Source of the DNA: a virus
Virus record (IMG/VR): IMGVR_UViG_3300008114_002492
Span: 1 to 41,620 of that record
DNA: 41,620 bases
Strand: one strand, 5' to 3'
The position numbers and the translations under genes are program-made. Under the pieces are notes generated by a model, which ran no database searches, was not told the origin of the DNA, and saw only the letters and a program-made list of their open reading frames with translations. Shown piece after piece: positions 2,061 to 41,620 of this stretch (positions are counted from its first letter, which is position 1; each line of letters opens with the position of its first letter).

Positions 2061-2870
2061 ATGCCTGAAATAGTAAGAGAAATATTTGAGAACTATGTCA
2101 AAGAGACATTTGATTTAAAAGATTGTATTGCAGTAAATAATGGAACTAGTGCTCTTATTGCACCATTGTGGTCTATGGATTTTCAAGATGGTGATGAAGT
2201 TATCACAACACCATTTACCTTTATTGCAACAACAAACGCAATTATCATTGCCGGTGCAAAACCTGTATTTGTAGACATTAATCCAAATACATTATTAATT
2301 GATGTTGATAAAATAGAGGAATCAATAACTCCAAAAACAAAGGCCATATTACCAGTCCATCTATACGGTAGAATATGTGATATGGATAGGATTAATGAGA
2401 TATCCAAAAAACACAACTTAGTAGTCATTGAAGATACAAGTCAATCTTTCTCTGCTCAGGACGAACAAAACCGTTTTGCGGGAATGATGAGTGACTGTGG
2501 AACATTTAGTTTTTATAAGACCAAAAATATTTCAACCTTTGAAGGTGGGATGATTTGTATACCTAAAGATTCTAAATTAGATTCTAAAAAAATTAGAAGT
2601 ATCTGTAACCAAGGACAAGATGGGAGATATAATCATGTTCATATTGGTTTTAATTTTAGGTTGGCAGAACCATTGTGTTTAATGGCTTATGAACAAATGA
2701 AATTACATATGACTGGAATTAAATCTGAACTTGGATTAAGAGGTCCAAATCAAGGACATTATCCAAATGTGGTTTACGAACAACCAATTTATAAATCCAA
2801 AGGTATAACAGGAAATTGTCCGATTGCCGAGGAAATTGCAAGAAAAATCAGGAATAATGAAAAAGTATAA
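2061..2870 (+). CDS. DegT/DnrJ/EryC1-family PLP aminotransferase, shortened
   Basis: A sugar aminotransferase of the WbpE/ArnB type. Recognisable elements are NNGTSAL (residues 26-32), TTPFTFIATTNA, Asp125 in IEDTSQ (contacts the PLP ring nitrogen in relatives), and Lys155 in the SFYKTKN motif, the expected Schiff-base lysine. At 269 residues it is about 100 shorter than the family norm: roughly 25 N-terminal residues are missing, and most of the small C-terminal domain is deleted between EQMKLHM (near 215) and the closing PIAEEIARKI. Its end overlaps the next gene by 14 bp. Activity is uncertain because of the deletion. It would transfer an amino group from glutamate to a 3-keto nucleotide sugar. 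Confidence 0.8.
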   Translation: MPEIVREIFENYVKETFDLKDCIAVNNGTSALIAPLWSMDFQDGDEVITTPFTFIATTNAIIIAGAKPVFVDINPNTLLIDVDKIEESITPKTKAILPVHLYGRICDMDRINEISKKHNLVVIEDTSQSFSAQDEQNRFAGMMSDCGTFSFYKTKNISTFEGGMICIPKDSKLDSKKIRSICNQGQDGRYNHVHIGFNFRLAEPLCLMAYEQMKLHMTGIKSELGLRGPNQGHYPNVVYEQPIYKSKGITGNCPIAEEIARKIRNNEKV

Positions 2871-3870
2871 AGTAGGAATTATTGGGTGTGGGGCAATATT
2901 ACCCAGACATTTAGAAGCAATAAATGCCAACCCAAATTTTGAATTAACCGCCCTGTGTGATATTCAAAAAGATTTGGTAGAAAGTCTTTCAAAAAAACAT
3001 AATGTATTACCATATACTGACTACAAAGAAATGGTAATGTCTAAAAATGTGGACTTTGTAACTATCGCAACACCAAACTCACTACACCATGAACAATCAA
3101 TTTTTTCATTAAAAAACGGTTGTGATATTTTAGTTGAGAAACCAGTTTCATTTTCTGTTGAAGAAATTGAAGACATTATTAAAGTATCTAAAAAACACAA
3201 ACAAGAAGTTTTTTGTGTGTTACAAGTAAGATTAAACCCAACAGTTCAATTACTAAAAGAAATCATAAGTAATAATTTATTGGGTGATATTAGAGCAGTA
3301 AATCTTGTTCAAAGATGGCAAAGACCGATTGAATATTTTACAGGGTGGAGGTCAATACCATCAATAGGTGGTGGTACATTATATGAAGTTGGAATACATT
3401 ATTTAGATGTGTTTCAATATGTCTTTGGAAAACCAAAAGTCCACAGTTCAAAAGTTTATAGCGCCAAACATACCTCAGTTGATATTGAAGATACAATATA
3501 TTCAATTTTTGATTTTAATACTTTTGGTGGAACTTGTGAAATAACAATTGCCGCAGAACCAAGAAACCTTGAATGTTCATTATCTATTTTAGGTGCCAAT
3601 GGATTTGTCAAAATTGGTGGAAAGGCGTTAAATATTGTTGAATCTGCGAATTTTTTATCTCATGGGTCTCAAACAGAATTTGATAAAATTAGAAAAAAAT
3701 ATAAAATATCTAATGAACCAAATAACTATGGTTCATATGAAGGTTCTTGTCCTAATCACCCATTTGTTTACCAAAATTTAAATGAATTTAAAATGGAAGA
3801 ATCAATTAATGTTATTTCGTTAATTGATGAGATATATGAAAAATCAAATATAAAATATAGAATAAAATAA
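2857..3870 (+). CDS. Gfo/Idh/MocA-family oxidoreductase (WbpB/WlbA-like)
   Basis: A 337-residue NAD(P)-dependent dehydrogenase. The Rossmann motif GIIGCGAI lies at residues 7-14, the family EKP motif at 94-96, and the second-domain active-site stretch GGGTLYEVGIHYLD at 171-184 with His181. The ATG at 2857 follows an AGGAAT purine stretch and starts MKKYK; a start at 2824 would add 11 residues inside the aminotransferase and lacks sense. WbpB/WlbA enzymes oxidise C3 of a UDP-GlcNAc uronic acid to give the aminotransferase substrate, which fits the gene order here. Other Gfo/Idh sugar dehydrogenases cannot be excluded from sequence alone. Confidence 0.82.
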   Translation: MKKYKVGIIGCGAILPRHLEAINANPNFELTALCDIQKDLVESLSKKHNVLPYTDYKEMVMSKNVDFVTIATPNSLHHEQSIFSLKNGCDILVEKPVSFSVEEIEDIIKVSKKHKQEVFCVLQVRLNPTVQLLKEIISNNLLGDIRAVNLVQRWQRPIEYFTGWRSIPSIGGGTLYEVGIHYLDVFQYVFGKPKVHSSKVYSAKHTSVDIEDTIYSIFDFNTFGGTCEITIAAEPRNLECSLSILGANGFVKIGGKALNIVESANFLSHGSQTEFDKIRKKYKISNEPNNYGSYEGSCPNHPFVYQNLNEFKMEESINVISLIDEIYEKSNIKYRIK

Positions 3871-3875
3871 AAGGT

Positions 3876-4478
3876 ATGGGAGCTCAATTTGGAATAGACG
3901 ACCTAATATTAAAAAATTTAGGAAATGATAAAATTTTTGTTGAGGCTGGTGGGTCTCATCCTGATGACCAAAATAACACATCATTATTAGAAAAATTTGG
4001 GTGGAGTGGTCTAATTGTTGAACCAAAATTACTTTATAATGATTTGTACAAAAAAACAAGACCTAAAACAATTGTTGAAAATTACGTACTTGTACCTAAC
4101 GAATATAACAATGATACCATAGATGGTGATTTTAGTCATTATATGATGGGAGGTGTTGTAAATATACATAATTTAGATTGGAACCCTAAACCTCATAACG
4201 CAATACAATTGTCTAAATTATTAAAAAAACATAATTTAACTGAAGTACATTTTATGAGTTTAGATGTTGAAGGTTATGAAGAACAGGTTTTAAAAGGTGT
4301 TAATTTTGATGAAGTTTTTTTTCACGTTATTGATGTTGAAAATCATGGTCAAATAGGGGTAGTTCAAGACTTTTCATTTTTAAATGATTTTGGTTTTGAA
4401 AAAGTTGGTGTAGTTGAAAACTCACATGAAATTTATATAAACAAAAACAGTCCTTTTAAAGAAACTTTTGTTTTTTAA
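3876..4478 (+). CDS. FkbM-family SAM-dependent methyltransferase
   Basis: A 200-residue methyltransferase. The SAM-binding motif I is FVEAGGSHPDD (residues 21-31), an acidic residue ends the second strand (LIVEP, Glu49), and the FkbM motif FMSLDVEGYEEQVLKG covers 126-141. FkbM enzymes O-methylate sugars or polyketides; here a sugar substrate is likely because it sits inside a glycan cassette, 5 bp after the oxidoreductase gene. O-methylation often caps or disguises a glycan. No membrane segment is visible. The length fits a compact FkbM domain with no added domain. Confidence 0.8.
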   Translation: MGAQFGIDDLILKNLGNDKIFVEAGGSHPDDQNNTSLLEKFGWSGLIVEPKLLYNDLYKKTRPKTIVENYVLVPNEYNNDTIDGDFSHYMMGGVVNIHNLDWNPKPHNAIQLSKLLKKHNLTEVHFMSLDVEGYEEQVLKGVNFDEVFFHVIDVENHGQIGVVQDFSFLNDFGFEKVGVVENSHEIYINKNSPFKETFVF

Positions 4479-4501
4479 CATAGTTGGTTTTAGTCATCAA
4501 T

Positions 4502-5248
4502 ATGGTTACATTAGAGTATAATGGTAGATTAGGTAATAGTTTAATACAATATGTAACTTCATTATTTTTTGCAAAAAAATTTAATTTACAATTTAAAAAC
4601 CCACCATTTTGTAATTCTGACAATTGGGGTCTTTTAATTAAAGAACCACAAATAGATGGACTGGTTGGTAAAGAAAACAAAAAAGTCAATGATGATAATT
4701 TTATGGAATTATTTGATACTGACACAACAAATCCATACCATTACCACTTTAATGGGTTTTTTCAAAAAAAAGAATTTTTTACAAAATACGAATTTGAAAT
4801 AAAATCTTTATTAAATATAAATCATAAAAGTATTAATGAAGATTTGGTTTTTGTTCATTATAGAATTGGTGACATTGAAGGAGATAAAAGAATGTTACCT
4901 TTAGAATATTACATTGAGGCTTTAGAAACCACAAAATTTAATGGTGGTTATATTGCTTCGGATTCACTAAACCATAATCATTGTCTATATTTAATTAACA
5001 AATATAAATTAAAACCTATTCAGGGACTATCACCAATTAATACGATATATTTAGGAAAAAATTTTAATAATTTGATTTTATCTGAAGGAACTTTTTCATG
5101 GTGGATTGGGTTTTTAAGTAGAGCTGAAAACATAATTTCTAACAAACGAGACTTTATGTGGCATGGTGATATTTTTTTAGATAGATGGAAAAAACTATAT
5201 TGGGATTATAATGATAAAACACCAATTAATTTAAAAAATAATATATGA
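4502..5248 (+). CDS. GT11-like (alpha-1,2-fucosyltransferase type) glycosyltransferase
   Basis: A 248-residue protein with motifs in the order of family GT11: NGRLGNSLIQY at residues 7-17 (family GRLGNQxFQY), VHYRIGDIEGDK near 118-129 (family HxRRGDY; here HYRIGD), LPLEYYIEAL near 132-141, and SEGTFSWWIGFLSRA near 194-208. GT11 enzymes use GDP-fucose. The HxRRGD motif is altered (first Arg to Tyr-Arg spacing HYRIGD), so donor specificity may differ. I use the ATG at 4502 because the GT11 motif begins almost at once; a TTG at 4484 would add six residues. It overlaps the next gene by 4 bp (ATGA), which suggests translational coupling. Confidence 0.68.
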   Translation: MVTLEYNGRLGNSLIQYVTSLFFAKKFNLQFKNPPFCNSDNWGLLIKEPQIDGLVGKENKKVNDDNFMELFDTDTTNPYHYHFNGFFQKKEFFTKYEFEIKSLLNINHKSINEDLVFVHYRIGDIEGDKRMLPLEYYIEALETTKFNGGYIASDSLNHNHCLYLINKYKLKPIQGLSPINTIYLGKNFNNLILSEGTFSWWIGFLSRAENIISNKRDFMWHGDIFLDRWKKLYWDYNDKTPINLKNNI

Positions 5249-6303
5249 ATATTGGTATAATTGGAATTGGTAATTTAGGTCTAAATTTATTAAATTTTTT
5301 ATCTGAACAAAAACATGAAATTTATGTTTCAGACGTTGATGGTGATAATGTTGAAGTTATTAAAAACTCTGATGTTATTTTTTGTTGTGTAGATACAAAT
5401 ATTTTACCATCAAATTTTTTGGATATAAAAAATGTAATGAATGTTGTTGAAGATTTTGGTGTCTCATTTGAAAATGAAGTACCATTATATGACAAAATTT
5501 TTGTAATCTGTTCTACTTTAAATCCTGGTGACACAAAACAAATATCGGAAATTTTAAATCCGATGAATTTAAGTATTTGTTATCTCCCTTTAATTGTTAA
5601 TTCAGATAACACATTATCATTAGAAACTTTAGTAATTGGTACTATTGATTCACACATTGTTAACACAATCTCAGATATATTTCAACCACATCAAGACAAA
5701 AAAATAAATGTAGTATCTATGACAAGTAAATCTGCCGAAATATATAGGTTGGCATATAGTTCTTACATTTATTATAAAATAAATTTTGCAAATTTTTTAG
5801 GTGAACTAATGTTAAATTTTGGTACATCAGATGAAACAAAATTACTTCTTAAAAGTTTAGGATATGACAAATCAATCGCCGAACAAAACTTTAATTTTGG
5901 ATTTGGTGTTGGTGGACCTTGGATACCAACGGAAAATAGAGTTTTTGGTCAAGTTGCAAATGGTAATAAATTAGATTTTGTATTACCATTTGTTAATGAT
6001 GATTTTAATCTTAATCATAATGAGTTTATAAAAAATCATTTTATAAAAACTAATCCCGATAAAACACAACCATTTGTCATATCAGGTATTGGGTATAAGG
6101 ATAATTCAATTAGTATTAAAGAATCTTCTAAACTTGAATTAGTATATGGTTTATTAAAAGAAGGTTATACTGTGTTTATTATTGAAAGTGATGAGTTTAT
6201 TAAAAATGTAAAAGTTGTTAAAGAATTAGTTTTTGACTTTGGTGAAAAAGTAAAGTTCTTTAAAAAGGGTACATCGCCCAAAGGAGTATACATTAATTTT
6301 TAA
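5245..6303 (+). CDS. UDP-glucose/GDP-mannose dehydrogenase homologue lacking catalytic residues
   Basis: A 352-residue protein with the layout of nucleotide-sugar 6-dehydrogenases: Rossmann motif IGIIGIGNLGLNLL (3-16), CSTLNPGDT (89-97) matching the STxPPGT element, the central helix with AEIYRLAYSS (164-173), and GFGVGGPWIP (219-228) matching GFGFGGSCFP. The key residues are changed: the catalytic Cys is Trp226, the Lys of ExxK is Arg168, the following Asn is Ser172 and the Asp four residues after Cys is Glu230. It is also about 50-80 residues shorter than active enzymes. It therefore probably does not oxidise C6 in the usual way. It may bind nucleotide sugar, act as a partner, or catalyse a Cys-free reaction. 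It is the last gene of the sugar cassette. Confidence 0.72.
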   Translation: MNIGIIGIGNLGLNLLNFLSEQKHEIYVSDVDGDNVEVIKNSDVIFCCVDTNILPSNFLDIKNVMNVVEDFGVSFENEVPLYDKIFVICSTLNPGDTKQISEILNPMNLSICYLPLIVNSDNTLSLETLVIGTIDSHIVNTISDIFQPHQDKKINVVSMTSKSAEIYRLAYSSYIYYKINFANFLGELMLNFGTSDETKLLLKSLGYDKSIAEQNFNFGFGVGGPWIPTENRVFGQVANGNKLDFVLPFVNDDFNLNHNEFIKNHFIKTNPDKTQPFVISGIGYKDNSISIKESSKLELVYGLLKEGYTVFIIESDEFIKNVKVVKELVFDFGEKVKFFKKGTSPKGVYINF

Positions 6304-17636: not shown

Positions 17637-17876
17637 ATGAAAAATACTAAAAATACTGAAGAAATATTAAAAAAAACACAAGAAATTATTGGTTCTCTTT
17701 TTGACACAATACATTACACATCAAATGAACAATTAAATTCATTTATTGATGGTATGAATGAAGAACAAGCAATGTATTGTTTAAAACAAGCATTAATTGC
17801 CTGTCACGTTAGAGGTGCATTTACAATGGAAGAAACCGAAGCAGTTTCAAAGTCTTTAAGAATTTTAAATTCTTAA
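17637..17876 (+). CDS. small hypothetical protein
   Basis: A 79-residue, probably all-helical protein ([20 protein letters not shown] and [20 protein letters not shown]) with two cysteines. No family recognised. It is a lone plus-strand gene between two minus-strand genes; its stop shares bases with the stop of the convergent Thr/Pro-repeat gene. The divergent 49-bp gap to the gene at 17587 must hold its promoter, but I see no clear TAnnTTTG there. Its good coding quality supports a real gene. Confidence 0.55.
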
Positions 17877-18883
17877 GATGTTGGTGTAGGTGTTGGTGTC
17901 TCAGTTGGAGTTTGAGTAGGAGTATCCGTTACCGTAGGTGTTGGTGTATTAGTTGGTGTTTGAGTAGGAGTATCCGTTACCGTAGGTGTTGGTGTATTAG
18001 TTGGTGTTTCACTAATAGTTGGTGTTGGTGTTTGAGTAGGAGTATCCGTTACCGTAGGTGTTGGTGTATTAGTTGGTGTTTCACTAATAGTTGGTGTTGG
18101 TGTCTCAGTTGGAGTTTGAGTAGGAGTATCCGTTACCGTAGGTGTTGGTGTATTAGTTGGTGTTTGAGTAGGAGTATCCGTTATTGTGGCCGTTGGTGTG
18201 TTAGTAGGAGTTTCAGTCACTGTTGGTGTAACCGTATTAGTAGGTGTTATTGTGGGTGTAGGTGTAGGTGTTGGAGTTCTTGTCGCCGTTGGTGTTGGTG
18301 CGGGACACGACTCAATTAATATTATATTACCTGAACCATTTGTTTGAAATACAGTGTTACCTGGTAATCCACCAGAATCTGAAAGATATGTTGCAAAAAT
18401 TGGTGTTGTAAAACTACTATTCAAGTATATTGTTGTTCCTGTAGTCCAAAAACCAATAGCAACATTACTATAATATGTTTGAAGACTTGGACTTGAACAA
18501 GCATCTAATGATGTTGTACCGCTAGATAATGATGTAATTGTAAACACAGGTCTAGTTGGTGTTGGTGTAATTGTAGATGTTATAGTTGGAGTTGGTGTTA
18601 AACTTGATGTTACACTTGGTGTTGGAGTTGCTCCATAACTTGGAGTAACAGATGCTGTAATACTTGGAGTTGGAGTTACTGGTGGTGGCCAATCAATTGT
18701 TGAAAGAATTTGAATACTTTTAGATGCTGTCGAATAAGTACCGTCAATATACCATACATTAATAGTTTCATTTTCTAATACTTCGTGATTATTTATATTT
18801 AAATTATCCGAACATCTAGTATAATTAATAACACCAATAGATGTTATTGAGTTATTTTTTATTATTGATTTTTTACAAGCCAT
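17873..18883 (-). CDS. Thr/Pro-repeat virion-type protein
   Basis: A 336-residue protein. Residues 1-70 form a small domain (begins [14 protein letters not shown]); residues 72-110 and 195-336 are Thr-Pro arrays with Ser, Val, Glu, Asp and Asn (for example [14 protein letters not shown]); between them (111-192) is a second folded domain with two cysteines (DACSSPSLQ and ESCPAPTP). The C-terminus consists wholly of repeat. Such arrays form stiff extended stalks and are common O-glycan acceptors. It has a TATTTAT box and follows the capsid gene after a terminator. The DNA repeat unit is about 48 bp. I infer a surface-exposed fibre or decoration protein. Confidence 0.6.
17877..18300. repeat. tandem coding repeats (about 48-bp unit)
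   Basis: Four near-identical copies of a core beginning GTATCCGTTACCGTAGGTG start near 17922, 17970, 18042 and 18126, with a decayed copy near 18174. Units are separated by interchangeable shorter TPT-coding blocks, the pattern expected from slippage or recombination in a Thr/Pro-repeat gene. Confidence 0.8.
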
Positions 18884-32824: not shown

Positions 32825-33724
32825 TTAAGAGTTTAGTCCATTAAATCCACCAAGGGCAACTGAGTCTACTTGAACTACAGACCTTCCTTGTGCGTTTGAA
32901 TATATTGCGTGTGGTAATGCTTGTGTATATGTGTTACCTGAACATGTAATACAATCTTCATATACTATAGTTCCACTTTGTGTATTTGTTGTTCCACCTG
33001 TTAACGCAAAACCACTAGGTGTGATTGTTGGTGTTATACTTGGTGTTGGTGTTATTGTTGATGTAACCGTAGGGGTTACAGTTCTTGTTGGGGTAATACT
33101 TGGTGTTGGAGTAACAGTTGGTGTTCTTGTTAATGTTGGTGTTACTGTTGGTGTAGCACTTGGTGATATAGTAATACTTGGGGTAATACTTGGGGTAATA
33201 CTTGGTGTTGGTGTTAACGTTCTAGTTGGTGTTAACGTTGGAGTAATACTTGGAGTAATACTTGGTGTTGGTGTTAACGTTCTAGTTGGAGTGACAGTTG
33301 GAGTAACAGTTCTAGTTGGAGTAACAGTTGGTGTTCTTGTTACTGTTGGTGTTATAGTTGATGTTGGAGTAACAGTTGGTGTTCTCGTTACTGTTGGTGT
33401 TACCGTACTTGTTGGTGTAGGAGTTGGTGTTACAGGTGTTCTTGTAGGAGTTGGTGTTACGGTCTGTGTTGGAGTTGGCGTTGGTGTAGGATTTGCCGAT
33501 AAACAAGTTGCACAATCATTATAATCAACAGATTGTGTTAAAACTTTATCAATACCTGTTGCTGGCTCTGCGTTATCTATTATATCATAACATCCTGGTG
33601 TGGATGCTCCTGTGAATGTTAAATAGTAATTACCATTAACTGCAGGTAATGATGCACTATCAAAATCAACGAGTATTGATGCTCCGCCACCACAAGGACC
33701 TATTAAATATGTTACTAATGCCAT
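32825..33724 (-). CDS. second Thr/Pro-repeat virion-type protein
   Basis: A 299-residue protein starting [14 protein letters not shown]. Residues 1-75 are a small domain with four cysteines (paired as CGGG, GCYD, NDCATC), 78-235 are a Thr/Pro/Val/Ser/Arg array ([18 protein letters not shown] and variants), and 236-299 are a C-terminal domain with a CITC pair. So the array is a stalk between two folded ends, unlike the protein at 17873 whose stalk is terminal. The ATG at 33724 follows a TATTTAT box; the longer frame to 33748 crosses that box. A surface fibre or decoration role is likely by analogy. Confidence 0.6.
33020..33490. repeat. degenerate coding repeats (Thr/Pro stalk)
   Basis: Low-complexity GTTGGTGTT-type DNA made of short 6- to 36-bp blocks, including two near copies of a block that reads GTTAACGTTCTAGTTGGTG on the plus strand. 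It encodes the Thr/Pro stalk and is a likely site of length variation. Confidence 0.75.
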
Positions 33725-33735
33725 AATTTTACTAT

Positions 33736-33742
33736 ATAAATA
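33736..33742 (-). promoter_or_regulatory. TATTTAT box, candidate late promoter
   Basis: TATTTATATAG on the minus strand, 11 nt before the start at 33724. Confidence 0.45.
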
Positions 33743-33766
33743 TAGCAATAATGGTAAATTGTTAAA

Positions 33767-34519
33767 TTATTCTACGTCAGTATTTTCAACAGATAAATTT
33801 TTATCTATTAATTTGTTTTTAAAATCAAATAATTTTTGAATATAACCATTTCTACGAAGAAATTTAAACACTAAATTTTCGTATGAAAACTCCCCATCTT
33901 TTTCCAAACCCGAACTACGGAATTTCTTTAATCTGTCTTTGAAGGTATCTAAACGTTTAACCGATTTGTCATAATCTTCACCTTCAGCATCTTCAATAAT
34001 ACTATCAATTTGACTCATCATTGAATTTGTTTTTGACAATAACATTTCTTTGTCAATTTTAACATTTTCTTTTTCAGGATTATGAACCCATGTATCAAAC
34101 ATTACTGAATACACACCACTTGAAAAATGTGATTCGTCAATATCTTCAGCGTATAATTCCACATCAAAACCTTTTACGGTAATATTGTGGGTAGTATTAA
34201 ATAAAGTTTTTTTAAGTGTAAATAACTCTTTATACATTTCAACATCTTCAGGGTCAAACTGTGTAAAATCAACGTAAAGGTGTAAATCAATATCAGAAAA
34301 TTTTGACCAATTAAAATTGGCTAGTGAACCAGTAAATCTAACATCATCAACAAATAAATCATCACCCAAGTAATCCATGAATTCCCCGGCAATCATTAAC
34401 AATGCTTTTCTAATTTGTGGTTTTAACTTTGGTTCATCACTTTCAACATCATCCCATATTTCAGGGTTTAATGTTTCTTGTGTTCCAAAAGAAGATAATA
34501 TTTCTGAGTATTTATCCAT
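33767..34519 (-). CDS. nucleotidyltransferase-like protein
   Basis: A 250-residue protein with the pol-beta nucleotidyltransferase signature: TGSLANFNW (63-71) supplies the GS of the motif, SDIDLHLYVDF (75-85) the two metal-binding aspartates Asp76 and Asp78, and GFDVELYAED (117-126) the third acidic residue, Asp119. It could transfer a nucleotide to RNA, protein or a small molecule. The C-terminal half is helical and charged and may bind the substrate. It sits in the late operon with a TATTTAT box 5 nt before the start. The acceptor is unknown. Confidence 0.7.
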   Translation of the reverse strand: MDKYSEILSSFGTQETLNPEIWDDVESDEPKLKPQIRKALLMIAGEFMDYLGDDLFVDDVRFTGSLANFNWSKFSDIDLHLYVDFTQFDPEDVEMYKELFTLKKTLFNTTHNITVKGFDVELYAEDIDESHFSSGVYSVMFDTWVHNPEKENVKIDKEMLLSKTNSMMSQIDSIIEDAEGEDYDKSVKRLDTFKDRLKKFRSSGLEKDGEFSYENLVFKFLRRNGYIQKLFDFKNKLIDKNLSVENTDVE

Positions 34520-34759: not shown

Positions 34760-35206
34760 TTAGGGTTTCATTTTTTGTAGTTGGTCTCGTAGTTCAATTG
34801 CCTTTTCAAAGTTTTGTGATTTAATACACTCCTTCAACTCATCTTCAATCTTTTTAATTTCTTCTTGGTCTTTTTCAAAAGTTTTGATTTTATCACGAAG
34901 ATAAATTGCCAATTGGAAATCTTCTTTTTCAACTGCTTTGTCAAGTTGTTGTTTTAATGATTCCAAAGAATTTTTATTTTTTCTTGGTGCACCCATAGTA
35001 CCCGTAGTTACAATGTAAGTAATTCTACCATCAGGGGATGAAAAAGTTTCTTTTTCCCATTCCATACCATTTTCACTTCCTGTTTCAGTTTTATGTTCCA
35101 TAGAAGAACTGTTAAAGTTAGGGTTGTAATCACCAAACATCTCATTGATTTCGTCCATCATTTGTTTTAGAGATTTTCTGTTGTTGTTTCCAAATAAGTC
35201 AAACAT
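34760..35206 (-). CDS. UVR-motif protein, McsA-like ClpC-adaptor candidate
   Basis: A 148-residue protein with two UVR motifs at the end: LKQQLDKAVEKEDFQLAIYL with RDKIK (84-107) and LKECIKSQNFEKAIELRDQL (124-143). UVR motifs occur in UvrB/UvrC and in McsA and ClpC, where they mediate contacts with each other. The N-terminal 80 residues are strand-like (EKETFSSPDGRITYIVTTGT) and lack the four zinc-binding cysteines of McsA; only Cys127 is present. It is divergent from the phage ClpC-like gene, whose own middle domain also carries a UVR-like motif, so an adaptor role for that unfoldase is a reasonable inference. Confidence 0.65.
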   Translation of the reverse strand: MFDLFGNNNRKSLKQMMDEINEMFGDYNPNFNSSSMEHKTETGSENGMEWEKETFSSPDGRITYIVTTGTMGAPRKNKNSLESLKQQLDKAVEKEDFQLAIYLRDKIKTFEKDQEEIKKIEDELKECIKSQNFEKAIELRDQLQKMKP

Positions 35207-35231
35207 ATTTTTTTATTTTAAATTTTTTATG

Positions 35232-35239
35232 TATCTTTG
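35232..35239 (+). promoter_or_regulatory. possible upstream -7 element of the clpC promoter region
   Basis: TATCTTTG matches TAnnTTTG on the plus strand, but no TTG is present 19-20 nt upstream. A transcript from here would have a leader of more than 100 nt that includes both repeats described below. Confidence 0.3.
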
Positions 35240-35275
35240 TGAAACATAAATACAAAATTGTGCCAAATCAATAAC

Positions 35276-35313
35276 ACTGACATTTTGTCATATTATACTG
35301 ACATATAGTCATA
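35276..35313 (+). promoter_or_regulatory. paired operator-like repeats upstream of clpC
   Basis: Two 17-bp copies, ACTGACATTTTGTCATA (35276-35292) and ACTGACATATAGTCATA (35297-35313), are identical at 15 of 17 positions, have TGAC/GTCA inverted arms, and start exactly 21 bp apart, two helical turns. The second ends 1 nt before the -33 TTG of the clpC promoter. This is the geometry of a dimeric repressor or activator site pair. Confidence 0.65.
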
Positions 35314-35314
35314 G

Positions 35315-35344
35315 TTGTTATTTAAAATAAAAATGGTATATTTG
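35315..35344 (+). promoter_or_regulatory. Bacteroidetes-type promoter of clpC (TTG-N19-TATATTTG)
   Basis: -33 TTG at 35315-35317 and -7 TATATTTG at 35337-35344, spacer 19 nt. The predicted start of transcription is about 10 nt before the ATG at 35362. Confidence 0.8.
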
Positions 35345-35361
35345 TGGTAAGATAAAAGACT

Positions 35362-37356
35362 ATGATTGAATCAATGGATAACACAGAAGGTAAGTCAACA
35401 CCTAAAAAGAAATCAGGAGGAACTCCTGTATTGGACAATTTCAGTAAGGACTTAATCAAAATGGCTCAAGAGGGTAAATTGGACCCTGTTATTGGTCGTG
35501 AGATGGAAATTAACCGAATTGCTCAAATCCTTTCTCGTAGAAAGAAAAACAACCCAATTATCATTGGTGAACCTGGTTGTGGTAAAACCGCAATTGTTGA
35601 AGGTTTGGCAATGAAAATCTTTAACGGGGATTGTCCTCGTAACTTACGTGATAAACGTATTGTATTATTGGATTTAACATCCATCGTTGCCGGTACAAAG
35701 TATCGTGGTCAATTTGAAGAACGTATGAAAGTTATTATTGAAGAACTTTCAGAAAATCCTGACATTGTAATTTTCATTGATGAAATCCATACAATTGTTG
35801 GAGCTGGTAATTCTTCAGGTTCAATGGACGCATCCAACATCTTTAAACCAGCACTTGCTCGTGGTGAAATCCAATGTATCGGAGCAACCACTTTGGATGA
35901 GTATCGTACCAACTTTGAAAAAGACGGAGCCCTTGAGCGTCGTTTCCAAAAAGTTGTTGTTGACTCTCCAAATAAAGCTGAGACTTTAACAATCATTACA
36001 AATGTTAAAGACAAGTATGAAGAATACCATAAGGTTAGTTATTCTGAAGAAGTATTGGAATTGTGTGTGAACTTGGCTGACCGTTACATCACTGACCGTG
36101 AGTTTCCTGACAAAGCATTTGATATTATGGATGAAGTTGGTGCCCGTTCTCAAGTGGATACCAAAATCCCTGAATCCTTGGAGATTCTAAAACAAAAAGC
36201 TTCAGAACTTAAACAACAAAAACTTGATGTTGTTAAAAGACAAGACTTTGAACACGCAGCTGAACTACGTGATAAAGAGAAAAAACTTCTTGAACGTTTG
36301 GAACTTGAAAAGGCGAAGTTTGAAAAAGAACAATCTGAAAATCGCAAACCGATTGACCCAGAATTGGTCTTGAATGTAGTTTCGTCAATGACAAAGATTC
36401 CTGTCAACAAATTAAATGTTGATGATAAGATGGCTTTGGTTGGAATGGAAAAAACTTTGATTTCCGAAGTTGTAGGTCAGGATGATGCGGTGTCAAAGAT
36501 TTCAAAATCTATCCGTAGAAACCGTTTGGGTATTAAAGACCCAAATAAACCAATCGGTTCGTTTATCTTCTTGGGTTCAACAGGTGTAGGTAAAACCCAC
36601 TTGGCAAAACAATTGGCTAAACAAATCTTTGGTAGTTCAGATGCACTTATCCGTGTGGATATGAGTGAGTACCAAGAGAAACATACCATCTCTCGTTTGA
36701 TTGGTTCCCCTCCAGGTTACGTGGGTTATGAAGAAGGTGGACAGTTGACCGAACAGGTTAAGAACAAACCTTACTCTGTAATCTTGTTTGATGAGGTTGA
36801 AAAAGCAAACAAAGAAATCTTCCACACACTTCTTCAGATGTTGGATGAAGGTCACCTTACAGATTCTTTGGGTAGAAAAATTAACTTCAAGAATTGTTTG
36901 ATTATTATGACATCAAACATTGGGGTTAAAAAACTTCAAGACTTTGGAACAGGTATCGGTTTTTCAAGTAACGCTTATTCTAACGAAGAACAGAAAAAAG
37001 AAATCTTGAAAAAAGAAATGAAGAATTATTTCTCTCCTGAGTTCTTGAACCGTATTGATGATGTGATTGTGTTTAATTCTTTGAACGAAGAATCTATCAA
37101 AAAGATTGTTGACATTGAATTAAAGAAATTAATGGGTCGTTTGTCAGAGTTGAAACTTATTTTCAAGTATGACGACAAATTAGTTTCACACATTGCCAAG
37201 ATTGGTTATGATGAATTATATGGAGCTCGTCCTATCAAAAGAGCAATTCAGGACCAAATTGAAGATTTGATATCTGAAGAAGTCCTAAACGGAAATGTGG
37301 TTGAGAGTAAACAATATTCCCTATCGGTAAAATCTGAGAAGGTAATCATCAAATAA
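35362..37356 (+). CDS. clpC: ClpC-like AAA+ unfoldase without N-domain
   Basis: A 664-residue Hsp100 ATPase. D1 has Walker A GEPGCGKT (69-76), pore loop KYRG (113-116) and Walker B IFIDEIH (137-143). The middle domain has a UVR-like motif (LKQQKLDVVKRQDFEHAAEL, 283-302). D2 has GSTGVGKT (405-412), pore GYVG (452-455) and FDEVE (476-480). GTGIGF (529-534) fits the ClpP-docking loop (I/L/V-G-F), so it should work with host ClpP. The first 20 residues are a short basic tail; the about 150-residue N-domain that binds adaptors in ClpC is absent. D2 ends with YGARPIKRAIQDQIEDLIS. Host-type promoter and an operator-like repeat pair lie upstream; a terminator follows. Confidence 0.9.
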   Translation: MIESMDNTEGKSTPKKKSGGTPVLDNFSKDLIKMAQEGKLDPVIGREMEINRIAQILSRRKKNNPIIIGEPGCGKTAIVEGLAMKIFNGDCPRNLRDKRIVLLDLTSIVAGTKYRGQFEERMKVIIEELSENPDIVIFIDEIHTIVGAGNSSGSMDASNIFKPALARGEIQCIGATTLDEYRTNFEKDGALERRFQKVVVDSPNKAETLTIITNVKDKYEEYHKVSYSEEVLELCVNLADRYITDREFPDKAFDIMDEVGARSQVDTKIPESLEILKQKASELKQQKLDVVKRQDFEHAAELRDKEKKLLERLELEKAKFEKEQSENRKPIDPELVLNVVSSMTKIPVNKLNVDDKMALVGMEKTLISEVVGQDDAVSKISKSIRRNRLGIKDPNKPIGSFIFLGSTGVGKTHLAKQLAKQIFGSSDALIRVDMSEYQEKHTISRLIGSPPGYVGYEEGGQLTEQVKNKPYSVILFDEVEKANKEIFHTLLQMLDEGHLTDSLGRKINFKNCLIIMTSNIGVKKLQDFGTGIGFSSNAYSNEEQKKEILKKEMKNYFSPEFLNRIDDVIVFNSLNEESIKKIVDIELKKLMGRLSELKLIFKYDDKLVSHIAKIGYDELYGARPIKRAIQDQIEDLISEEVLNGNVVESKQYSLSVKSEKVIIK

Positions 37357-37384
37357 GTGAATAATATTCCTTATCGGTAATAAA

Positions 37385-37412
37385 AGTGGGGTCATTGACC
37401 CCATTTTTTTTT
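37385..37412 (+). terminator. rho-independent terminator of clpC
   Basis: Hairpin TGGGGTCATTGACCCCA (37387-37403) followed by nine T. Its core GGGTCATTGACCC is shared with the terminator at 40607. Confidence 0.85.
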
Positions 37413-37430
37413 ATAAAGTTATAAGCATAA

Positions 37431-37456
37431 AAAAAAGGGTCGTTAAGACCCTTTTC
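37431..37456 (-). terminator. rho-independent terminator of the peptidase gene
   Basis: Stem AAAAGGGTC / GACCCTTTT (37433-37441 with 37447-37455), loop GTTAA; an A-run at 37428-37436 gives the U-tract on the minus strand. It directly follows the peptidase stop at 37459. Confidence 0.8.
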
Positions 37457-37458
37457 TA

Positions 37459-38286
37459 TTAAATGTACCACTGACTTTTGGCATATTCTTTATCGTACTG
37501 ATACTCATGTTTTTCATATCCAAGTTTATCAATCATTGCATATGCGGTCTTAATTGAGTTATCCAAATCATCAATTACCACATACTCACTTGGTCTGTGG
37601 TAGTTGTAATAACCACAAGAAATGTTGATACAAGAGAAATCAAACTTCATTTTCAATTGAGAAACGTCTGTGTATGGGTGAACCATATACTCACGAGTTG
37701 GCATGTATTCATCTAATACCTTGTCAACAATGGTAAAGAATTCACTATCACGGTTAAATAAACGTACACCAGAACAAACTTCAGTAACCATGTAGTTCAA
37801 TGGTGCATCCAACTGAATTGCGTAAGACACATCAACAAAGAAATTTGGGTCAGCTTTACGAGAACCCCAACATCCTGTTTCCTCACTAACAAAGAACGCT
37901 GCTTTTACGTGTGGTAAATCCAAAAGAGCTGACATTGCTCCAAACACACCACATTTGTCATCACCACCAATACCTGTTTCTTTACCTTCAGGTGTATAAC
38001 CTTTAAGACAAACTTTAAGGTTTCCTTCATAGTCAGGTAAGGTTTCTGTGTGAACAACAATCTCATTCATTCCGTGAACGGTATCGGTATGAGCAACCAT
38101 ACATGGATAAAGTTTCCCTTCAAAACCTTCACTTGTTTTGGTGGCATAAATGTTCATCATTTCATCTACCACATAAGGTATGTTGTTTTCCTTAAGCCAG
38201 TTGGAAATAAATTCCACCATATATTCTTCATGGTACGTAGCGGTTGGAACGCTAAGTACTCTTTCTAATAAATCTAATCTGTTCAT
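37459..38286 (-). CDS. M20-type zinc peptidase (PepT-like), compact
   Basis: A 275-residue metallopeptidase with a full ligand set: His66 and Asp68 in VAHTDTVHG, Asp109 in GIGGDDKCG, the acid pair Glu135-Glu136 in SEETG, Asp160 in IQLDAP, and His230 in YNYHRPSE. This is the M20/PepT catalytic arrangement with two zinc ions. It lacks the roughly 100-residue dimerisation domain of PepT. Such enzymes release amino acids from short peptides, so it may recycle ClpP products. I start at 38286: the frame to 38307 would run across the promoter. A TATCTTTG promoter ends 7 nt before the ATG. A host-type promoter suggests early or middle expression. Confidence 0.8.
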   Translation of the reverse strand: MNRLDLLERVLSVPTATYHEEYMVEFISNWLKENNIPYVVDEMMNIYATKTSEGFEGKLYPCMVAHTDTVHGMNEIVVHTETLPDYEGNLKVCLKGYTPEGKETGIGGDDKCGVFGAMSALLDLPHVKAAFFVSEETGCWGSRKADPNFFVDVSYAIQLDAPLNYMVTEVCSGVRLFNRDSEFFTIVDKVLDEYMPTREYMVHPYTDVSQLKMKFDFSCINISCGYYNYHRPSEYVVIDDLDNSIKTAYAMIDKLGYEKHEYQYDKEYAKSQWYI

Positions 38287-38293
38287 CTTACCA

Positions 38294-38323
38294 CAAAGAT
38301 ACAACAAAATTATGAATTATCAA
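38294..38323 (-). promoter_or_regulatory. Bacteroidetes-type promoter of the peptidase gene (TTG-N19-TATCTTTG)
   Basis: On the minus strand, TTG at 38321-38323, 19 nt spacer, TATCTTTG at 38294-38301, then seven nt to the ATG. The transcript is probably leaderless or has a leader of only a few bases. The TTG overlaps the end of the upstream gene. Confidence 0.8.
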
Positions 38324-41268: not shown

Positions 41269-41299
41269 TTGTTGATTCAAAAAAGTATATTTATATTTG
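41269..41299 (+). promoter_or_regulatory. Bacteroidetes-type promoter of the tmRNA gene (TTG-N20-TATATTTG)
   Basis: TTG at 41269-41271 and TATATTTG at 41292-41299, 20 nt apart. The mature tmRNA 5' end lies about 20 nt further on. Confidence 0.8.
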
Positions 41300-41320: not shown

Positions 41321-41620
41321 GGGGATGACATGGAATCGACAGGTATTGTTGATTGATGGATGCACGTATGAGCTGAAATAACTCATTAAAAACTGGTTCA
41401 AAAAATTAGACGGCAACGTTTTAGACAAAATGGCGACTATCGGATTAATCCGTGAAAACGCTTCTGTAGTAGCCTAATCGCTATTGCAACTCAGGTCGGG
41501 AGACACTAACCTAGGAACAGAAGTCTTTAGAGGTGTGGTTTCTATCTTAAAAGAAACAAGTGGAGGATTAGTTCTCAGTAAACCGAACCACTATAAAATA
41601 AGGGAATTGTGAATTTCGGA
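41321..41620 (+). ncRNA. ssrA: tmRNA (5' part; 3' end beyond the window)
   Basis: The start GGGGATGACATGGAATCGAC is the conserved tmRNA 5' end (acceptor strand, then GGAATCGAC). A pseudoknot-1 stem ATGAG / CTCAT is visible (41368-41372 with 41382-41386). TTAGAC (41407-41412) matches the conserved stretch before the resume codon, which would be GGC at 41413. The frame then runs 21 codons to TAA (41476-41478). The tag begins GNVLDKMATIG and ends LIRENASVVA. The window ends at about TTTCGGA, which leads into the T-arm and 3' acceptor strand, so only about 30-40 nt appear to be missing. The host-type promoter suggests early expression. tmRNA with SmpB rescues stalled ribosomes and tags the nascent protein. 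Confidence 0.88.

Follow-up and report, generated by a model that had tools for sequence, protein, structure and literature searches.

What would a phage gain from carrying, side by side, a Clp unfoldase, a candidate partner for it, a peptidase, and a transfer-messenger RNA (tmRNA)? This question is raised by one end of a 41,620-base virus fragment from IMG/VR (IMGVR_UViG_3300008114_002492; the whole fragment is called the window here), in which T4-type head genes (major head protein, prohead protease, portal, and terminase) are followed on the right by a divergent pair consisting of a gene for a UVR-motif protein and clpC, then by an M20 peptidase gene, and then by a tmRNA at the contig end, 4.3 kb lying between clpC and the end of the window. 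A sequence-only reading of the locus had proposed that the phage redirects host ClpP to chosen proteins and recycles their amino acids. After comparison with related phage and bacterial sequences, we consider it slightly more probable than not that a phage-owned, largely self-contained module of trans-translation and proteolysis has its core at this locus. The strongest support for this comes from the gene set itself, the presence of ClpP in close relatives, a distinct tag under selection, and the exchange of one partner protein for another.

A synteny comparison found the gene set conserved across related phages; the non-conservation that had been named as grounds for abandoning the sequence-only reading did not occur. 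The loci were fetched by searches with ClpC (best 80), the UVR protein (best 30), and the M20 peptidase (best 80), and ClpC proteins were counted as distinct when their last 500 residues differed; the loci are related, not independent. The pooled set is biased toward UVR and M20, and a recount was made on the 74 loci from the ClpC scan alone. An M20 match was present in all 128 distinct-ClpC loci for which 1.5 kb or more of downstream sequence was available, lying downstream on the opposite strand in at least 125 of them; of the 74 ClpC-scan loci, 73 have it downstream in convergent orientation and the remaining one has it elsewhere. Across loci with enough flank, the flanking genes also recurred (NT250, on the left-hand side, in 119/120; P494 in 109/110; P599 in 99/99).

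The ClpC of the window matched the Pfam families AAA, AAA_lid_9, AAA_2, and ClpB_D2-small, which together represent both AAA+ modules, and approximately 20 residues precede the D1 module. An N-domain would not fit into the 155-bp intergenic gap between the divergent genes. The best solved-structure match was a ClpC chain, from residue 149 to 794 (E=1.8e-221), and the alignment with phrog_4871 begins at position 163 of its 764. The description of a ClpC with both ATPase cores and no N-domain, given in the sequence-only reading, was thus borne out, and the same state was found in the relatives: all 129 distinct phage ClpCs with a readable start have fewer than 100 residues before D1 (the start was unreadable in 6 of 135), and none of these short frames begins at a locus edge. 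In contrast, among the best 80 bacterial relatives (77 labeled as Bacteroidota), in which the N-domain was judged by the length of the open frame, at least 200 residues precede D1 in 78; the two exceptions, L261 and L255, lie near the start of their contig sequence. A crude N-domain motif occurred in 58/80 bacterial and 0/130 phage ClpCs. Pfam Clp_N matched none of the 41 long related records, a negative of limited sensitivity, given that the B. subtilis control was also missed. With Clp_N absent and both AAA+ modules present, the protein was filed as a ClpC-derived N-domain-less unfoldase and not as a canonical ClpC.

The catalytic and docking elements are well preserved in the 127 full-length phage ClpCs: the D1 Walker A motif was found in 124, D1 Walker B in 110, D2 Walker B in 126, and the D1 pore motif in all 127. 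The putative ClpP-docking loop GTGIGF is intact in the window, as had been read from its sequence; an [IV]G[FL] triplet occurs somewhere in 127/127 and the strict loop DFGxG[IVL][GP][FL] in 113/127. The UVR-like motif of the middle domain, also part of the sequence-only reading, was recovered as a weak single-motif match (22.0 bits against a cut-off of 21.5), and UVR matches fall within frames of 664–716 aa in most of the long related records. On a quick tree, 76 phage ClpCs formed one clade (SH-aLRT 100, no bootstrap). Three uncultured huge phages, L333, L334, and L335 (642, 635, and 484 kb), also have a ClpC without an N-domain; L335 formed a long branch that could not be placed, and L333 and L334 branched among the bacterial rows, suggesting that the N-domain has probably been lost more than once. 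In two of these three phages, clpC lies amid apparent glycan genes. When a "phages" collection was searched with ClpC, 40 of 166 matches were listed, many of which may be bacterial DNA; one of the four inspected, a faecal contig, has a start of N-domain length. The ClpC frame of L147 begins in a stretch resembling part of an intein.

ClpP (PF00574) was found over the cut-off, with E-values of 1e-51 to 1e-60, in 26/41 and 12/40 related records. Absence was called only where at least 35 kb downstream could be searched, and on this basis 37 of the 79 records that could be placed have ClpP and 7 lack it; the other 35, including L048 (33.8 kb) and L066 (34.5 kb), were left unassigned. In the 37 placed cases, clpP lies 13–44 kb from clpC. 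Ser, His, and Asp motifs were present in all five phage ClpPs that were read (L231 and L221–L224; four distinct). A phage ClpP is encoded 23.7–24.2 kb from clpC in L001, L083, and L084, which share 98% ClpC identity with the window; the three are probably one phage, their ClpCs being identical to one another. Because these close relatives carry their own ClpP, this locus is better explained otherwise than by the redirection of host ClpP. The loop type also varied with ClpP status: records with an IGF loop numbered 32 with and 0 without ClpP, and those with a VGF loop, which is the loop of 72/80 bacterial ClpCs, 5 with and 7 without. The closest relatives of the window combine the IGF loop with ClpP. 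A link between loop type and ClpP status is suggested by these counts, which correspond to one or two independent changes on the tree, so that significance is out of reach.

The gene divergent from clpC encodes two UVR stretches, in line with the sequence-only reading. A 45-row alignment and a low-confidence AlphaFold2 (AF2) model suggest an N-terminal helix and a short beta segment followed by two UVR helical hairpins. The protein is not McsA: it has one cysteine in 148 aa and therefore lacks the zinc-finger CXXC pairs, and the McsA model aligned only to its UVR end (35.4 bits against a cut-off of 210). At the 126 loci whose upstream flank reached 1.5 kb or more, the slot divergent from clpC held a UVR gene in 79, a small heat shock protein (sHsp) gene in 26, neither in 21, and both in none (37, 17, and 20 with UVR, sHsp, and neither in the 74 ClpC-scan loci). 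The two kinds of gene share the position and orientation of the slot, at 50–192 bp (UVR) and 67–180 bp (sHsp) from the ClpC frame, and at least six exchanges between them were needed on a tree of the full 26 sHsp rows and a sample of 28 UVR rows. Furthermore, Hsp20 (PF00011) was over the cut-off in 10 of the 41 whole records (five of them near-identical), and the slot UVR protein was in none of these 10. The aligned sHsps have an alpha-crystallin domain and a terminal I-x-[IL] motif.

We read the UVR protein and the sHsp as two solutions to what may be one job, substrate-side help to ClpC. The sequence-only reading, made from a window that shows neither the phage ClpP nor the sHsp exchange, had host ClpP redirected to chosen proteins; the sHsp in the same slot of other phages points to the handling of misfolded or aggregated proteins no less than to that of chosen host targets. 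In trapping experiments with plastid ClpC1, UVR proteins were physical partners, and a UVR domain is also part of the adaptor ClpF (PMC8889267); by analogy, the phage UVR protein may contact the phage ClpC, whose own middle domain is UVR-like. An origin of the UVR protein from the sHsp by domain replacement, considered because both proteins have an F-rich N-terminal helix and a DG turn, was not supported, no homology between the two being detected (hhalign probability 4%, 12 columns). A full-length host orthologue of the UVR protein was not found in 15 Bacteroidota genomes; partial matches occurred in 14 of them, mostly in frames of 202–226 aa and in two cases in frames of 666–668 aa. A tblastn search of named phages with the UVR protein gave no match. 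L107:7440-8375, at a locus from which a ClpC match is absent, encodes a 311-aa protein that has three UVR motifs and whose N-terminal half differs.

The tmRNA of the window was found neither by ARAGORN nor by Rfam at the gathering score. With relaxed Rfam thresholds, it scored 35.2 bits, cut at its 3′ end, and it was intact, at 63.7 bits, in the four records nearest to the window; the tmRNA that had been noticed from the letters is therefore real in this lineage. A tmRNA scored above the Rfam cut-off in 36 of the 41 long records; of the negative ones, G015 has no Clp match, and G016 and G032 end near clpC. All 30 complete phage tmRNAs have the G3-U70 pair and 7/7 acceptor pairs. On 31 phage tmRNAs trimmed to their Rfam bounds (that of the window being incomplete), default ARAGORN found 9, compared with 13/13 host tmRNAs, and tmRNAs of this kind may thus be under-reported in phages.

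The 31 tmRNAs (from the window and 30 loci, some near-identical) encode 21 distinct tags of 21–22 residues with the pattern GN[VT][LFI]xK[ML]xxxGL..., in which GL is invariant (21/21). Most end in VA, AA, GA, or TA, and one ends in TI; two begin with D and were read by analogy. Two tags printed by ARAGORN agree with the manual reading. The rates of difference at codon positions 1, 2, and 3 were 0.398, 0.173, and 0.499, and the low variability at position 2 is expected if the peptide is under selection. The Bacteroidota tags are distinct: in the 13 readable genomes of 15, they have nine residues and read GENNYALAA or close to it. SmpB is carried by two of the 41 records, G011 and G012. At G012:83042-84397 (in L234), in a record without a slot partner, approximately 0.5 kb separates the phage SmpB gene from the tmRNA.

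The compact peptidase of the sequence-only reading was also upheld. The metal and catalytic residues of M20 (H66, D68, D109, E135, E136, D160, and H230) were invariant in 46/46 aligned rows. The AF2 model (pLDDT 94) best matched the PepT structures 3gb0 and 1vix, and was closest to PepT and Xaa-His dipeptidase. The lid or dimerization domain is absent, the model being a single domain of 275 aa compared with the 373–411 aa of PepT. ATG at 38286, and not TTG at 38307, was taken as the start because a TAnnTTTG element lies directly upstream. In the cultured Cellulophaga phage Calle (L343:8373-11056), a tmRNA, possibly permuted, lies 1.25 kb from the M20 peptidase gene. The related phage phi38:1 has the same peptidase and no annotated tmRNA, and the compared parts of the Calle tmRNA stretch are identical in it except for the last few bases. 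No Clp D2-small match was found in the whole records of Calle or phi38:1. Calle is a possible laboratory system.

TAnnTTTG is the Bacteroidota promoter consensus, and host-type promoters had been assigned from sequence to clpC, the peptidase gene, and the tmRNA alike. With start codons assigned mechanically, the element was found within 70 bases upstream of the tmRNA in 23 of 26 distinct regions and of M20 in 113/126, compared with 35/130 for ClpC. The frequencies were 2/28 for the sHsp genes, 3/120, 1/123, 1/119, and 0/73 for four neighboring genes, and 2–9% in single-base shuffles (5.8% for the ClpC upstream region). A host-type element is thus a conserved property of the tmRNA and M20, and less so of ClpC, for which the assignment holds only in part. 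The features of the locus are collected in Table 1.

Table 1. Features of the clpC locus, in positions of the window
Feature	Position	Strand	Basis
UVR-motif protein, 148 aa, divergent from clpC, proposed ClpC partner	34760..35206	-	Pfam UVR 1.5e-14, two stretches
TATATTTG, Bacteroidota-type -7 element (predicted) before clpC; TTG at 35315-35317, spacing 19	35337..35344	+	sequence
ClpC-type double AAA+ unfoldase, 664 aa, without N-domain	35362..37356	+	Pfam, PHROG, NCBIfam, and PDB matches
UVR-like motif in ClpC middle domain, residues 278-309	36193..36288	+	Pfam UVR E=1.3e-4
GTGIGF ClpP-docking loop (putative)	36946..36963	+	read from sequence
Compact M20-type metallopeptidase, 275 aa, PepT-like catalytic domain without lid domain	37459..38286	-	Pfam M20 1.1e-6
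TATCTTTG, promoter element (predicted) before peptidase gene	38294..38301	-	sequence; TAnnTTTG
TATATTTG, promoter element (predicted) before tmRNA	41292..41299	+	sequence; TAnnTTTG
tmRNA (ssrA), 5′ three quarters, truncated by contig end	41321..41620	+	Rfam RF00023 E=1.9e-11
tmRNA tag frame, GNVLDKMATIGLIRENASVVA-stop	41412..41477	+	homologous tags in relatives

The physical contacts, the recognition of the tag by ClpC, the timing, and the order of events that we infer for the phage-owned module would be as follows. The tmRNA and M20, and in some phages ClpC, would be made from host-type promoters, probably early. The tmRNA, with host SmpB in most of these phages, would rescue ribosomes stalled during the takeover and add the phage-specific tag in place of the host GENNYALAA-type tag. 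The hexamer of N-domain-less ClpC, docked through its GIGF loop, would pull tagged and misfolded proteins and thread them into phage ClpP, and the compact M20 peptidase would trim the degradation products. Without its N-domain, ClpC would be beyond steering by N-domain adaptors, and the product of the divergent gene (a UVR protein here and an sHsp in other lineages) would bring aggregated or unfolded substrates, in the UVR case probably via the ClpC middle domain. A narrower proposal, to which we give distinctly less than even confidence, is a private tag-and-destroy system, in which the tag would be read by the phage N-domain-less ClpC-ClpP and inefficiently by host ClpXP, and in which the plug-in UVR/sHsp slot would replace the N-domain as the route for misfolded substrates; protein quality control during the phage era of the infected cell would thereby be separated from that of the host.

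Several observations weigh against the phage-owned module. No ClpP is encoded within the window, and its presence in this phage is extrapolated from close relatives; in the wider set, seven records lack it over the 35 kb or more searched, and 35 are unassigned. Where present, clpP is mostly 20–30 kb from clpC, outside its operon, a distance that is among the weakest points of this reading, and the phage ClpP falls below the NCBIfam equivalog cut-off (245.9 vs 361 bits), which marks it as divergent. AF2 gave a poor model for the UVR protein (pLDDT 61). Since neither UVR nor sHsp lies beside clpC in 21/126 loci (20/74 in the ClpC scan), the slot partner is either dispensable or replaced by something unseen; moreover, phages retain the tag whether the slot has UVR, sHsp, or neither (e.g., L191, L205, and L193), which shows that the tag does not require the partner. 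The tag may be read by host ClpXP and not by ClpC. G007 and G031 have ClpC and the expected region, yet no tmRNA over the cut-off. Finally, TAnnTTTG is missing before most ClpC genes and most UVR genes (present in 10/81 of the latter), and its rarity there means that expression of the module may not be co-timed.

An alternative that we consider unlikely is that ClpC, with the sHsp or the UVR protein, acts as a disaggregase or folding helper that keeps virion proteins soluble, as ClpB does with IbpAB, proteolysis being secondary. An sHsp occupies the partner slot in 26/126 loci, clpC stands beside the conserved genes NT250 and P494 next to the head block, and ClpB was the top-scoring NCBIfam model for the window ClpC, although below its cut-off (808.7 vs 1232.1). 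However, the middle domain has a UVR motif and the length of that of ClpC, unlike the long coil of ClpB, a ClpC is the best PDB match, and the strict ClpP-type loop is retained in 113/127 proteins; ClpP is present in 37/79 placed records and clearly lacking in only 7.

Two further alternatives were considered. In favor of the model from the sequence-only reading, in which phage ClpC would recruit host ClpP and turn it on chosen host proteins via a UVR adaptor, seven records with at least 35 kb downstream have ClpC and no ClpP, and all seven have VGF, the common bacterial type of loop, whereas every IGF record of known status has ClpP. Five VGF records have ClpP as well, however, the association amounts to one or two changes on the tree, UVR proteins occur in ClpP-bearing phages too, and the closest relatives of the window have ClpP and IGF; recruitment of host ClpP, improbable on the whole, fits better a VGF subclade that seems to lack ClpP. 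About equally improbable in our view is that ribosome rescue, a general peptidase, and a chaperone are separately useful and merely share an early-expressed corner of the genome. The distance of ClpP, the different promoters of ClpC/UVR and tmRNA/M20, and phage Calle, with its tmRNA and M20 1.25 kb apart and no Clp D2-small match, are consistent with loose neighbors; the joint occurrence of ClpC and M20 in 73/74 ClpC-scan loci and the replacement between UVR and sHsp exactly in the divergent slot argue against them.

Other genes of the window were also inspected. A 250-aa protein encoded at 33767-34519 (-) is conserved in 119/120 loci, and its best PHROG is annotated as function not known; it contains a GS...SDIDL pattern, which we take to resemble that of nucleotidyltransferases. 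The product of 32825-33748 (-) is a Thr-Pro repeat protein whose repeats are spaced irregularly at 12 and 18 bases, and phrog_15511 matches both this protein and that encoded at 17873-18883 (-). At the left end (2061-6303), there are aminotransferase- and UDP-glucose dehydrogenase-type genes; host surface glycan remodeling has been ascribed to other Bacteroidota phages with such genes, in the accessible part of one report (PMC9723584).

Several known systems resemble the phage locus in part. MecA and McsA are adaptors of bacterial ClpC-ClpP, with which the phage system shares the double AAA+ architecture, the UVR-type middle domain, the ClpP loop, and a UVR-motif partner; it differs in that every readable ClpC lacks the N-domain, the partner has no McsA zinc fingers, and an sHsp can fill the slot. 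N-domain-less Hsp100 motors are known in mitochondrial Hsp78 and the short form of ClpB, which are ClpB-type disaggregases; these share the N-domain-less state with phage ClpC, but are not known to have a ClpP loop. Plastid ClpC retains its N-domain and works with ClpS. The chloroplast ClpC1 system with ClpF and UVR/EXE proteins resembles the phage system in using UVR-domain proteins as ClpC partners (a contact that is presumed in the phage), as far as the available text goes (PMC8889267), and the architecture of the phage partner differs. With tmRNA-SmpB systems, including those phage tmRNAs covered by the accessible parts of two reports (PMC4131195, PMC7162821), the phage tmRNA shares the RF00023 family, the Ala identity pair G3-U70, and a hydrophobic tag end; it differs in its conserved 21–22-aa tag, unlike that of the Bacteroidota host, and in being encoded near its own Clp genes.

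In large phages, ClpA-type genes, ClpP, Hsp20, and tmRNA have each been reported, judging from the available portions of four papers (PMC12619734, PMC7824862, PMC9723584, PMC7162821). In jumbo phages, ClpA/ClpC, ClpP, or Hsp20 are annotated singly (PMC7824862, PMC12619734, PMC9723584), and among the same three sources a moraphage core list includes ClpA and a putative peptidase; in the parts available, these papers draw no link to tmRNA, a UVR protein, N-domain loss, or a partner swap. Searches of an open-access library yielded no description of the module as a whole, of the loss of the N-domain, of the exchange between UVR and sHsp, or of the conserved tag. In a large clade of Bacteroidota phages, Clp, Hsp20, and tmRNA genes here make up a single conserved set, with a tag distinct from that of the host, a ClpC without the domain on which host adaptors act, and a slot in which a UVR protein and an sHsp substitute for each other. 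Two questions follow: can a degradation tag be orthogonal and belong to a virus, and are UVR proteins adaptors for aggregates that work through the middle domain of ClpC? The set could also provide research with a degron and protease that form an orthogonal pair.

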